Source: Xanthobacteraceae bacterium | GTDB lineage: Bacteria; Pseudomonadota; Alphaproteobacteria; Rhizobiales; Xanthobacteraceae | Assembly: GCA_022844485.1 (NCBI GenBank) | Contig: JALHLQ010000013.1 | Coordinates: forward strand, 1 to 64,000 | Reading direction: 5' to 3' | Length of the DNA: 64,000 bases | Program-made: the position numbers and the translations under genes | The notes under the pieces: model-generated | The model's input: only the letters and a program-made list of their open reading frames with translations | What the model was told of the DNA's origin: nothing | Database searches by the model: none | In this document: positions 33,483-36,438 of the stretch, one piece after another | How positions within the stretch are numbered: the stretch's first letter is position 1 | Layout of the letters: the number at the start of each line of letters is the position of its first letter

Positions 33483-34400
33483 TCACACGGGCGCCGTCCA
33501 GCCTTTCGGCAGCCGCGCGCGCTCGATCTGCGCGAAATCGCACAAGACGTCGACCATGGCCGAGAAATCCGCAGCCCCGTAACCGCGCGCCCGGGCGATC
33601 GAAAAAGCCTCCCGCGCGGCGGCCGCGATCGGGACCGGAACACGGCCCGCATTGGCTGCATGCAAGATCAGCGAGAGGTCCTTGTGCGCAAGATCGATGG
33701 TGAAGCCGGGCTCGGTGTCGCCCTTGAGCACTTTGTTCGGCCAGTTCACCTTGAGCTGGCCGTTGGTCGCGGTGGTGCCATGGAGCACCTCCAGCGTCTT
33801 CGTCAGATCGAGCCCGAAGCGCTGCGAAAGCGCGAGCGCCTCCGCATTGAGCTGGCAGAGGATGATCGCGAGATAGTTGTTGACGAGCTTCATGCGCATG
33901 CCCGCGCCGACCGCGCCGCAATGGTGAATGGTCGTTCCCATCGCCTGCAGGAGCGGCAGGACGCGCTGGAAATCGGCGTCGCTGGCGCCGACCATGAACA
34001 GGCTTTCGCCGCGGTCGGCATGCGCCGCGAGCCGTCCGACCGGCGCGTCGACAAAGGACAATCCGCGCGCTCCTGCTTCCGCCGCCAGCGCATCGGTCGT
34101 TTGCGGGTCGACCGTCGACATGTCCATGATCAGCGCGCCCCGCTGCGCATGGGCGAAGACGCCGTCAGGGCCGCGCAGCGTTTCCCCGACCTCCGAGCCG
34201 GACGGCAGCATCGTGACGATGATCGAGGCGCTCCTTGCCATCTCCGCGGCCGATCCGGCGGCTCTCGCCCCGAGCGCCACGAGCGCCTGCACGGGCGCCG
34301 GCGCGATGTCGGAGACGAGAAGCGAAAACCCCTTGCGCTGGAGGTTGGATGCCATGCCCTTTCCCATGCGCCCGAGGCCGATGAAGCCGATGGTGTCCAC
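33483..34400 (-). CDS. beta-hydroxyacid dehydrogenase, 3-sulfolactaldehyde reductase (YihU)-like
   Basis: A 305-residue NAD(P)-dependent dehydrogenase of the 3-hydroxyisobutyrate dehydrogenase superfamily. GFIGLGRMGKGMASNL binds the cofactor; KLVNNYLAI holds the catalytic lysine. Where hydroxyisobutyrate enzymes read DAPVSGG, this one reads DAPVGRLAAHADRG, close to the PVGR of E. coli YihU, and WPNKVLKGD, IDLAHKDLSL also match YihU as I recall it. That enzyme interconverts sulfolactaldehyde and dihydroxypropanesulfonate. The substrate is inferred only. The GTG at 34400 has GGAGGA six bases upstream. Divergent from a ComDE-like decarboxylase. Confidence 0.82.
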   Translation of the reverse strand: MDTIGFIGLGRMGKGMASNLQRKGFSLLVSDIAPAPVQALVALGARAAGSAAEMARSASIIVTMLPSGSEVGETLRGPDGVFAHAQRGALIMDMSTVDPQTTDALAAEAGARGLSFVDAPVGRLAAHADRGESLFMVGASDADFQRVLPLLQAMGTTIHHCGAVGAGMRMKLVNNYLAIILCQLNAEALALSQRFGLDLTKTLEVLHGTTATNGQLKVNWPNKVLKGDTEPGFTIDLAHKDLSLILHAANAGRVPVPIAAAAREAFSIARARGYGAADFSAMVDVLCDFAQIERARLPKGWTAPV

Positions 34401-34475
34401 GTGATTCCTCCCGCCTCTTGTCGTGCGCGGCTGCATACGCGAGAGTGCGGCGCGCAAGCGATAAGGAACTAGACG

Positions 34476-35027
34476 ATGGCGCGCGCCACTCCAAGCCTCA
34501 GTTTCGGTGAACCGGCGGCGACCGCGACCTGGCCCGACGAGATCTTCGAGGCGCTCAAGAGCGCACGCGTGCGCCAGGTGGCCTACGTACCCGACGCCGG
34601 CCACGCGCGGCTGATCCGCCGCGTTCAAGCCGAGCCGACAATGCGCGGCATCGTGCTCACGACCGAGGAAGAGGGCGTGGCGCTGCTCGCCGGCGCCTGG
34701 ATGGGCGGCGAGCGTGGCGTGCTCTTGATGCAGTCGTCCGGCGTCGGCAATTGTACAAACATGCTGTCGCTCGTGCAGAACCTGCGCATGCCGTTTCTCG
34801 CGCTCGTCACCATGCGCGGCGAATGGGGCGAGTTCAACCCGTGGCAGGCGCCGATGGGCCGCGCCACTCAACCCGCCTTCGCGCTGATGGGAGTCGATGT
34901 GCTCCGCGTCACGCGCGCCGAAGAGGCCGCCGAGACGGTGCGCGCCGCGGCGATGGCGGCCTTCGATGCCGGCGGCGCCGCCGCCGTGCTGCTGTCGCAG
35001 CGCTTGATCGGGACGAAGGTGTTCTGA
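34476..35027 (+). CDS. thiamine-diphosphate decarboxylase alpha subunit, ComD-like
   Basis: A 183-residue protein matching the pyrimidine-binding half of thiamine-diphosphate decarboxylases, in the style of sulfopyruvate decarboxylase ComD: VPDAGHARLIRRV, the conserved acid in LTTEEEGVALLAGAW, VLLMQSSGVGNCTN and ALVTMRGEWGE. ComDE converts sulfopyruvate to sulfoacetaldehyde; phosphonopyruvate decarboxylases are the nearest alternative. It ends in a one-base overlap (TGATG) with the beta-subunit gene. AAGGA lies eight bases before the ATG. Confidence 0.8.
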   Translation: MARATPSLSFGEPAATATWPDEIFEALKSARVRQVAYVPDAGHARLIRRVQAEPTMRGIVLTTEEEGVALLAGAWMGGERGVLLMQSSGVGNCTNMLSLVQNLRMPFLALVTMRGEWGEFNPWQAPMGRATQPAFALMGVDVLRVTRAEEAAETVRAAAMAAFDAGGAAAVLLSQRLIGTKVF

Positions 35028-35620
35028 TGGCCGGCGGGATCCATCGGCTCGATCGGCGCGCCGCGGTCGCCCGGCTCTTACAGAACCGGACCGACTTGCT
35101 CGTTGTCTCCGGGCTTGGCTCGGCGACCTATGACGTGGCGGCCGCCGGCGACCATGAGCGCAATGCCTATCTCTGGGGCGCCATGGGGGGCACGGTGGCG
35201 ATGGGTTTGGGACTTGCGCTCGCGCAGCCCAATTTGCCGGTTGCGGTGATCACCGGGGACGGCGACCTGTTGATGAGTCTCGGAAGCCTGGCGACGGTGG
35301 CGGTGCAAGCTCCGCTCAACCTGTCGATCGTGGTGCTGGACAATGCGCTGTTCGGGGAAACGGGCAAGCAGTCGACGCATACCGCCGGCCCGACCGATCT
35401 TGCCACCATTGCGCGCGGTTGCGGCATTGCCGATGCGCGCGACATCACGCACATGGAGGAGGTCGCGGAGCTTGCCCTGCGCGTGCACCGGATCGGCGAC
35501 GGACCATGCTTTGCGAGGATTTGCATCGATGACCGCGATCAACCGCGGGTGCTTCCCACGCGCGACGGCGCCCGCATCGCCGCGCGTATTCGCGCCGCGC
35601 TCGGCCTTGCGCCGTTATAG
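35027..35620 (+). CDS. thiamine-diphosphate decarboxylase beta subunit, ComE-like
   Basis: The cofactor-binding partner: a 197-residue TPP_enzyme_C domain with GAMGGTVAMGLGLALAQP, the magnesium and diphosphate motif GDGDLLMSLGSLATVA, and NLSIVVLDNALFGETG. Splitting one decarboxylase into two short subunits is how ComDE is built. The start overlaps the alpha stop by one base and the stop is five bases before the E1-like gene, so all three should share a transcript. Sulfopyruvate is a guess from the pairing with a YihU-like enzyme. Confidence 0.8.
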   Translation: MAGGIHRLDRRAAVARLLQNRTDLLVVSGLGSATYDVAAAGDHERNAYLWGAMGGTVAMGLGLALAQPNLPVAVITGDGDLLMSLGSLATVAVQAPLNLSIVVLDNALFGETGKQSTHTAGPTDLATIARGCGIADARDITHMEEVAELALRVHRIGDGPCFARICIDDRDQPRVLPTRDGARIAARIRAALGLAPL

Positions 35621-35625
35621 CCGCG

Positions 35626-36438
35626 ATGAACGACGTTACGCTCACGCCGGAAGAGATCGAGCGCTATGCGCGTCACATCGTGCTGCGCGACGTCGGCGGC
35701 CCGGGGCAACTGGCCATCAAGCGCGCGCGCGTGCTGGTGATCGGTGCGGGCGGGCTTGGCGCGCCAGTCCTGTTCTATCTCGCCGCGGCTGGCGTCGGCA
35801 CCATTGGCCTGGTCGACGACGACAGAGTGTCCTTGTCGAACCTGCAGCGCCAGATCATTCATGGCACGCCGGATATCGACCGCCCGAAGACGCAAAGCGC
35901 GGCCGATGCGATCGCGCGGATCAATCCGCACGTGACGGTCGAGCCTCACGCCACGCGCCTGATCGCGGCGAACGCGCTCGATCTCATCAGGTGCTACGAC
36001 ATCGTTGCCGACGGTTCCGACAATTTCGCGACGCGCTACCTGGTGTCGGATGCCTGCTTCTTCGCAAAGAAGCCGCTGGTGACGGCGGCGCTTGGCGTGT
36101 TCGACGGCACGCTGACGACCATTCGCGCGCACGAGCGCGGAAAAGATGGGAAGCCCAATCCCACCTATCGCTGCCTGTTTCCCGAGGCGCCGCCGCCCGG
36201 CGCTGTTCCCGCCTGTGCGGAGGCGGGGATTCTTGGCGCGCTGCCCGGCGTGCTCGGCTCGATGATGGCGCTCGAGGTCATCCGCGAAATCGTTGGCTTC
36301 GGCGATGGCCTGGTCGGCCGCCTCTTGATGATCGACGCGCGCGCGATGCGCTTTGAGACGCTCAACTACGGCTGGGACGCGGGCAACCCGCTCACGGGCG
36401 AAAGGCCGAGCATTCACGATCTGTCAGGCCACCGTTAG
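35626..36438 (+). CDS. moeB: MoeB/ThiF-family E1-like adenylyltransferase
   Basis: Activates the C-terminus of a ubiquitin-like sulfur carrier (MoaD in molybdopterin synthesis, or ThiS) by adenylation. RYARHIVLRDVGGPGQ (about 14-29), VIGAGGLGAP (41-50), DDDRVSLSNLQRQIIH and DGSDNFATRYL are all family marks, and PACAEAGILG keeps the cysteine. Of the four zinc cysteines of E. coli MoeB only the one in YRCLFPE remains, a pattern usual in rhizobial members as I recall. 270 residues. It is the third gene of the ComDE-like transcript; no moaD is near. Confidence 0.88.
   Translation: MNDVTLTPEEIERYARHIVLRDVGGPGQLAIKRARVLVIGAGGLGAPVLFYLAAAGVGTIGLVDDDRVSLSNLQRQIIHGTPDIDRPKTQSAADAIARINPHVTVEPHATRLIAANALDLIRCYDIVADGSDNFATRYLVSDACFFAKKPLVTAALGVFDGTLTTIRAHERGKDGKPNPTYRCLFPEAPPPGAVPACAEAGILGALPGVLGSMMALEVIREIVGFGDGLVGRLLMIDARAMRFETLNYGWDAGNPLTGERPSIHDLSGHR

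Follow-up and report, generated by a model that had tools for sequence, protein, structure and literature searches.

What do an aldehyde reductase and a two-subunit ThDP decarboxylase, transcribed in opposite directions, accomplish together? The question is raised by positions 33483 to 36438 of the window, by which we mean the whole 64,000-nucleotide stretch of a Xanthobacteraceae contig analysed here. An earlier note, made from the sequence alone, had placed four genes there, and this was correct; the two limits are the outer stop codons. It had tentatively read them as a YihU-like reductase divergent from a ComDE-like decarboxylase and an E1-like sulfur-carrier gene, with both enzymes acting on C3 sulfonates. 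Overall, the reductase and the decarboxylase do belong together, as shown by their recurring linkage, and the two probably process one small acid in succession; at the same time, there is little evidence that this acid is a sulfonate.

The reductase, a beta-hydroxyacid dehydrogenase (33486..34400, minus strand), starts with a GTG at 34400-34398 and reads to 33486; a longer open reading frame at this place is merely an upstream extension of the same frame. The protein contains VDAPVGRLAAHADRG. Its best solved match is YihU (6sm7, 238.7 bits; the runner-up, 3cky, reaches 188.9), and its profile scores descend from sulfolactaldehyde reductase (298 bits) through tartronate semialdehyde (222) to hydroxyisobutyrate (212). 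Arg123, in the PVGR motif, is conserved together with Lys171 and Asn175, and it is present in all 80 clade members (77 from the best-80 loci described below, the window, L042 and L040) as well as in YihU and in L120, a control from a true yih cluster. The description of a YihU-like enzyme with PVGR, unlike the hydroxyisobutyrate enzymes, is thus borne out, and a quick tree (SH-aLRT support only, GarR left out) also separates the protein from hydroxyisobutyrate and hydroxymethylglutarate enzymes. Phylogeny, which the earlier note had proposed as a check, nonetheless places the reductase as sister to the YihU clade and not inside it, with support of 97 for YihU, L120 and L041 and of 94 for the window clade; L118, cut by a contig end, and L119, with a broken reading frame in its record, were omitted from both the tree and the signature counts. 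Two long-branched paralogues from the window genome, L007 and L008, also fall within the reductase clade in this quick tree, probably falsely.

At 298.2 bits the reductase lies under the PRK15461 cut-off of 348, and among ten proteins scored L120 alone passes (480); seven relatives of the window reductase score 285-303, L040 scores 263, and L041, which lacks the Arg, 323. Apart from Arg123, the clade bears a signature of its own: the window protein has L124, A125, H127, A178, C182, Q183, N185, N213, Q215 and K217 where YihU has T, S, N, S, N, A, S, K, H and T, and the residues common to YihU and L120 (T124, S125, N127, S178, N182, S185, K213, H215, T217) are absent from it. On this comparison, PVGR by itself was not taken to establish specificity for sulfolactaldehyde.

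Across a 75-bp intergenic region (34401..34475), presumably a bidirectional promoter, lie the decarboxylase alpha subunit (34476..35024, plus strand; PYR domain, ComD/RhiE/AzcB-like) and beta subunit (35027..35617, plus strand; PP domain, ComE/RhiF-like, PRK06163-like), the TGA of the one overlapping the ATG of the other by 1 base. The two domains are thus carried on two subunits, with the catalytic Glu and the GDG..N residues in place; the invariant first Glu of TTEEEG in alpha, and the GDG and the Asn of the GDG...DN motif in beta, are each found in 69 of 69 decarboxylase sequences compared. The Pfam PYR-domain match of alpha is slightly under its gathering score (26.5 vs 26.8), and its fold resembles AzcB and RhiE, each one subunit of a two-subunit ThDP decarboxylase. 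The identification of this overlapping pair with ComDE stands as far as two-subunit architecture and motifs are concerned, but both subunits fall under the family cut-offs: alpha matches sulfopyruvate decarboxylase alpha with E 1.5e-29 (103 vs 148 bits, TIGR03845), and beta matches the beta subunit with E 1.9e-34 (119 vs 221.5 bits, TIGR03846), its top NCBIfam model being PRK06163, 'hypothetical protein'. Two methanogen controls clear the ComE cut-off, which none of 18 genomes (those of 16 of the best-80 loci plus G000 and G094) does; since these positive controls are both methanogens, a genuine bacterial ComE might likewise fall below it. An alpha-beta tree, from which we dropped duplicate loci as well as L059 with alpha alone and L032 with beta alone, gave an AU p of 0.394 on the window pair as an orthologue of Phreatobacter pairs. 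In the placing of decarboxylase pairs, both taxonomy and short flanks (1.5 kb in the unlinked set) confound the 'linked' and 'unlinked' labels.

The linkage itself was followed in the best 80 of at least 443 reductase relatives, with 38 of the 80 loci shorter than 20 kb. Alpha and/or beta lies near the reductase in 32 of these 80 loci, and in 19 of the 42 that are full-length; G094, additional to the 80, shows it too. The genes are arranged in four ways: divergent within 500 bp (13), divergent with intervening genes (7), and co-directional with the decarboxylase upstream (8) or downstream (5). In 48 of the 80 the available flank holds the reductase without a decarboxylase. In the window's family, a beta subunit occurs in 81 of 198 genomes, but just 4 of the 198, with that of the window among them, have the reductase (E <= 1e-60), which suggests that the decarboxylase often has other partners, and that the reductase may take another intermediate of the same pathway. 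As to other neighbours among the best 80, an aldehyde dehydrogenase lies immediately upstream of the reductase in 11 loci and in one further cut copy, and a branched-chain-type binding protein immediately downstream in 11; in 7 loci a TRAP binding protein is nearby. This TRAP protein has among its matches a chain labelled ketoacid-binding protein; the best of them is 2hzk, SmoM in the PDB, which we take to be the 2-oxoacid protein TakP. An acid-to-aldehyde route fits this company of aldehyde dehydrogenase and organic-acid-type binding proteins. Several loci, the window among them, appear by eye to have the two enzymes with no further gene of an evident shared pathway.

The fourth gene stands outside this module. 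The MoeB-like E1 of the ThiF family (35626..36435, plus strand) has its ATG 5 bp beyond the beta stop. It is a transcriptional neighbour with a housekeeping role and not a partner. It exceeds the NF004281 subfamily cut-off (291 vs 266 bits), the single such match in the genome, and falls under the stricter MoeB equivalog TIGR02355 (196 vs 376.55). As a sulfur-carrier partner it was rejected: it is the genome's sole match over the MoeB cut-off, it is seen only in L043-L049 among the best 80 of at least 443 loci, and in L043 it adjoins the reductase with the decarboxylase absent. The L043 arrangement, and the backbone-like character of the E1 gene, might suggest that reductase and decarboxylase are chance neighbours that landed at an insertion point next to moeB. 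We regard this as very improbable, as the linkage is repeated in varied contexts and orientations, in both Alpha- and Betaproteobacteria.

Could the module nevertheless serve sulfonates? The pair would then convert sulfopyruvate to sulfoacetaldehyde and the reductase would yield isethionate, or the reductase would oxidise dihydroxypropanesulfonate to sulfolactaldehyde. YihU is the closest solved reductase, in a sister clade with Arg123 in common, the pair is ComD/ComE-like, and bacteria are known to use a route that combines ComDE and Xsc (PMC11382572). No Xsc over cut-off was found in the window genome (best 282 vs 676.4 bits, in an assembly 98.48% complete) or in G094. Elsewhere in the window genome, PF03601/YeiH and TauE exporter genes flank a SuyB-like gene and a second, small one of SuyA size; they form a candidate sulfolactate-lyase operon, one that makes C3-sulfonate desulfonation plausible in this organism and so lends the sulfonate reading weak support. 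Among 22 reductase-bearing genomes (those of 20 of the best-80 loci, G000 and G094), 10 have Xsc over cut-off, and in 19 the pair adjoins the reductase; in the other three (entered via L066, L070 and L078) the available flank shows the reductase but no pair. SuyB-like proteins (at least 67% identity) occur in 10 of these 22 and in 6 of 28 genomes without the reductase, a comparison confounded by taxonomy, and many of the 28 carry a decarboxylase pair. Against this stand the missed YihU, ComD and ComE cut-offs, with the true yih-cluster control well above that for YihU, and a reductase signature unlike that of YihU. Within the best 80 of at least 443 loci, moreover, homologues of the genome's SuyA, SuyB, YeiH, TauE, HpsN-like and Ldh_2 proteins are found in none (tblastn E <= 1e-12), and the two Xsc matches are merely 26-29% identical. 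A second histidinol-dehydrogenase-like protein of the genome has DHPS dehydrogenases as its nearest matches, scoring 404 bits with 8wwe and 268 with the best histidinol dehydrogenase; we rejected it as HpsN, for it has G-R-Y-P-M in place of the G-R-Y-A/S-H given for HpsN in PMC11382572, and the His126 motif is absent from this HpsN-clade protein. The claim that both enzymes act on C3 sulfonates is therefore not upheld, and we consider a sulfonate module rather unlikely.

Two further readings bear on the substrate. The enzymes might act on different intermediates of one catabolic pathway, that of an aromatic or heterocyclic acid for example, with the reductase not using the decarboxylase product. 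Consider the Paraburkholderia loci L054-L058, which are larger clusters with FAH- and RraA-looking proteins (by eye) and, in L054, a Rieske-dioxygenase-like subunit under named cut-offs; L119 has an aminotransferase that passes the cut-off of the PRK06108 subfamily, together with a choline-dehydrogenase-like enzyme under its cut-off, and the two-subunit ThDP enzyme LumKL takes a heterocycle, quinoxaline carboxylate (PMC12746152). Yet at many loci, that of the window included, decarboxylase and reductase have no other evident pathway genes with them, and we hold this reading, too, to be rather unlikely. A phosphonate module, running from phosphonopyruvate through phosphonoacetaldehyde to 2-hydroxyethylphosphonate, is suggested by the related phosphonopyruvate decarboxylase RhiEF (PMC12141560) and by PEP mutase over cut-off in 3 of the same 18 genomes, each time next to a two-subunit pair. 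However, PEP-mutase-linked pairs differ from reductase-linked ones, the two that were placed sharing 35-36% identity with the window beta and standing in a clade apart, and no protein of the window genome passes the PEP mutase cut-off; for this genome the phosphonate route is highly unlikely.

The reading that we prefer, by a judgement only a little better than even, is a decarboxylase–reductase module for a small anionic 2-oxo or 2-imino acid. Alpha and beta would form a heteromeric ThDP decarboxylase that removes CO2 from the acid to give an aldehyde. The reductase next door would then interconvert this aldehyde and the primary alcohol with NAD(P)H as cofactor, and its conserved Arg123 may hold the acidic group of the substrate. 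At loci that also encode an aldehyde dehydrogenase, the aldehyde may be a shared node, oxidisable to the acid. We found no description and no assay of such a module in the literature. More tentatively, it may represent a widespread, undescribed proteobacterial route from an oxyanion-bearing 2-oxo/2-imino acid to the alcohol one carbon shorter. A C3-C4 sulfonate is a conceivable substrate, with sulfopyruvate (or a homologue) leading to isethionate; if true, the organosulfur cycle would gain a further origin of isethionate. Either half could readily be given the name of a close relative (sulfopyruvate decarboxylase for the one, sulfolactaldehyde reductase or hydroxyisobutyrate dehydrogenase for the other), and such naming would put false sulfonate pathways into sulfur-cycle surveys. 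What recurs here is a module of two enzymes, distinguished by a reductase signature of its own, whose substrate is testable using two purified enzymes.

Among known systems, YihU (6sm7; PRK15461) is the nearest enzyme of solved structure to the reductase and shares its fold family, the Arg in PVGR and the catalytic Lys and Asn, while ComDE (TIGR03845/TIGR03846) shares with the window pair the split PYR and PP subunits, the single operon and the ThDP motifs. The closest solved relative of alpha, in both sequence and fold, is AzcB of the Streptomyces enzyme AzcB/AzcC, titled an alpha-imino acid decarboxylase in the PDB (9u8q-9u8s), at about 28% identity; that of beta belongs to the two-subunit RhiEF (9iz3/9iz4, 62 bits), a phosphonopyruvate enzyme, and this genome shows no PEP mutase over cut-off. 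LumK/LumL, likened here by description and not by sequence, is again a two-subunit ThDP enzyme, of about 20 + 23 kDa (PMC12746152). The split ThDP architecture thus serves several different acids, namely phosphonopyruvate in RhiEF, an alpha-imino acid in AzcBC and quinoxaline carboxylate in LumKL, and the module in the window adds evidence for this diversity.

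Overall, the reductase and the split ThDP decarboxylase of the window probably form a single metabolic module. The layout described in the earlier note is indeed present: a beta-hydroxyacid dehydrogenase with two domains, PF03446 and PF14833 (the reductase, 33486-34400, minus strand), is divergent from a ComD-like alpha subunit (34476-35024) and a ComE-like beta subunit (35027-35617), whose genes overlap by one base (TGATG), with an E1-like gene (35626-36435) beginning 5 bp after the beta stop. What the sequences show is that the two enzymes are co-localised and their motifs intact; which reaction follows which, and a substrate that is a small, anionic acid of the 2-oxo or imino type, are inferred. 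Most likely, the alpha-beta decarboxylase would convert such an acid to an aldehyde, the reductase, of a clade sister to the 3-sulfolactaldehyde reductase YihU, would then reduce that aldehyde reversibly, and an aldehyde dehydrogenase, where present, would provide its oxidative exit.

The linkage was followed through the best 80 of 443 loci with reductase relatives in named genomes. Alpha and/or beta lies near the reductase, within the flank examined, in 32 of these 80, at 33 places since one locus holds two pairs: 13 divergent and at most 500 bp from the reductase, 7 divergent with genes between, and, on the same strand, 8 with the pair upstream and 5 downstream. A second genome of the window's family (G094) has the divergent layout of the window. 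Retention of the neighbourhood through repeated rearrangement argues that reductase and decarboxylase function jointly, a pairing of which we found no earlier description in the open-licence library searched. The beta gene is common in the window's family, being present in 81 of 198 genomes (E <= 1e-20), and the reductase is rare, being present in 4, the window genome counted (E <= 1e-60), so the decarboxylase also works with other partners. By eye, loci L010-L018 of same-family genomes carry a related pair divergent from a cytochrome P450-like gene and followed by TetR- and HlyD-like genes, another partner for this decarboxylase family. In locus L119 (10001-10910) the reductase frame is broken in the record and the adjoining genes are intact, reflecting a sequencing error or a young pseudogene.

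Other neighbours fit organic-acid uptake and use via an aldehyde. Among the same best 80 of 443 loci, 11 have an aldehyde dehydrogenase gene immediately upstream of the reductase gene, and L073 has a cut copy, counting copies at least 58% identical to that of L122, a locus in which a single reductase is accompanied by two decarboxylase pairs and two aldehyde dehydrogenases. The two copies scanned are nearest to 2,5-dioxovalerate and ketoglutarate-semialdehyde dehydrogenases, under the curated score thresholds (cut-offs) of those models. A branched-chain-type binding protein (nearest 3i09) is directly downstream of the reductase in 11 of the 80, and a TRAP binding protein is near it in 7; the latter is nearest to 2hzk (466 bits; PDB name SmoM), which we take to be TakP, a binder of 2-oxo acids, and it also has a match to a chain that bears the name ketoacid-binding protein. 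Inspection by eye further shows recurring LysR-type regulators. The E1-like gene is probably on the transcript of the pair in the window, as had been proposed, but reads as a housekeeping neighbour rather than a partner: it passes the MoeB cut-off as the sole such protein genome-wide, it was found only in L043-L049 of the 80, mostly Phreatobacter, and in L043 it adjoins the reductase with the decarboxylase absent.

The earlier note had both enzymes acting on C3 sulfonates, a reading that is possible and that we do not favour. Searches of the window genome return one SsuA-family binding protein above cut-off; a single Ldh_2 protein, which scores 218 of 500 bits as L-sulfolactate dehydrogenase; and no Xsc above cut-off. 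Xsc is likewise not found in G094 at that level, and exceeds it in 10 of 22 reductase-bearing genomes. Within the best 80 of 443 loci (1.33 Mb; tblastn E <= 1e-12), Xsc-like sequences amount to two remote matches, and homologues of the window genome's SuyA, SuyB, YeiH, TauE, HpsN-like and Ldh_2 proteins are not found. Each absence and presence is qualified by the state of the assembly, whose completeness is 98.48% and contamination 5.5%. The sulfonate reading nonetheless gains weak support from a candidate sulfolactate sulfo-lyase operon elsewhere in the genome (L140, contig C8, 5473-8935; four genes on one strand), in which a PF03601 (YeiH) gene and a TauE/SafE gene flank two others, one SuyB-like with PF04295 and PF20629, the other small and of the size of SuyA. 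The large protein matches only galactarate dehydratase, far under cut-off, and the small one matches no family; SuyA and SuyB are our own putative naming. Sulfolactate desulfonation by these genes is plausible, because SuyAB is described as the sole heteromeric enzyme of its superfamily (PMC6336799) and sulfite-type exporters lie on both sides. SuyB-like orthologues of at least 67% identity occur in 15 further genomes among 50 searched; with the window genome counted, 10 of 22 reductase-bearing genomes have one, against 6 of the 28 others, and taxonomy could account for this difference. A HisD-like protein of the window genome (L139, contig C5, 6320-7624), whose gene clusters with that of a beta-hydroxyacid dehydrogenase, has its closest matches among DHPS dehydrogenases (HpsN) but carries Met at the motif position for which PMC11382572 names His in HpsN; it is possibly an HpsN sister enzyme with a different substrate.

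A phosphonate role is unlikely for this genome. PEP mutase is not found above cut-off in the window genome and exceeds it in 3 of 18 genomes, every time beside a different, distinct two-subunit ThDP pair (G199 contig C86 and G216 contig C31, which are L132 and L135, and G215 contig C1). The two such pairs tested are 35-36% identical to the window beta, and these PEP-mutase-linked pairs are likely split phosphonopyruvate decarboxylases in Proteobacteria.

Split ThDP decarboxylases include ComDE, which acts on sulfopyruvate. Two papers describe others, RhiEF for phosphonopyruvate (PMC12141560) and LumKL for quinoxaline carboxylate (PMC12746152). Identification of the window pair as ComDE holds for the two-subunit architecture but not for the scores: alpha reaches 103 of 148 bits for ComD, and beta 119 of 221.5 for ComE, its second model after PRK06163 'hypothetical protein' (128 of 240). 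ComE exceeds its cut-off in 0 of 18 genomes with two methanogen controls positive, a level of which genuine bacterial ComE might also fall short. The predicted alpha fold (mean pLDDT 83.7, alignment of 9 rows) is nearest to AzcB (Foldseek E 2e-14, about 28% identity), from PDB titles a subunit of the ThDP-dependent alpha-imino acid decarboxylase AzcBC, with RhiE of phosphonopyruvate decarboxylase also near. The TTEEEG motif keeps its first Glu, the DN motif its Asn, and GDG is kept whole, each in 69 of 69 pairs; given these motifs and nearest structures, the pair is an intact split ThDP decarboxylase.

The likeness of the reductase to YihU stands in part. YihU is its best solved match (238.7 bits), ahead of 2-hydroxymethylglutarate dehydrogenase (188.9) and hydroxyisobutyrate dehydrogenases (about 153). 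A quick tree of 93 sequences groups the reductase with its relatives in a clade (support 94) sister to YihU, L120 and L041 (97), and a split with support 99 separates the two groups together from the enzymes for hydroxyisobutyrate and hydroxymethylglutarate. With the NCBIfam models, however, the window reductase stays under every cut-off, at 298 bits for sulfolactaldehyde reductase, 222 for tartronate-semialdehyde reductase and 212 for hydroxyisobutyrate dehydrogenase. Against the sulfolactaldehyde reductase cut-off of 348, our positive control L120 (Chelonobacter oris), surrounded by eye by sulfoquinovose isomerase, kinase, aldolase, sulfoquinovosidase and a regulator, scores 480, the window reductase and seven relatives 285-303, L040 263, and L041, with Gly in place of Arg123, 323. 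Arg123 is kept in 80/80 window-clade members and in YihU and L120. Together with the remaining signature, this suggests that the family is isofunctional and takes an acidic substrate, probably not sulfolactaldehyde: the clade has L124 (78/80), A125 (75/80), H127 (79/80), A178 (77/80), C182 (72/80), Q183 (78/80), N185 (77/80), N213 (80/80) and Q215 (76/80), differing at every one of these positions from YihU, which has T, S, N, S, N, A, S, K and H, respectively, and at position 217 it carries Lys or Arg in 76/80 members, where YihU has Thr.
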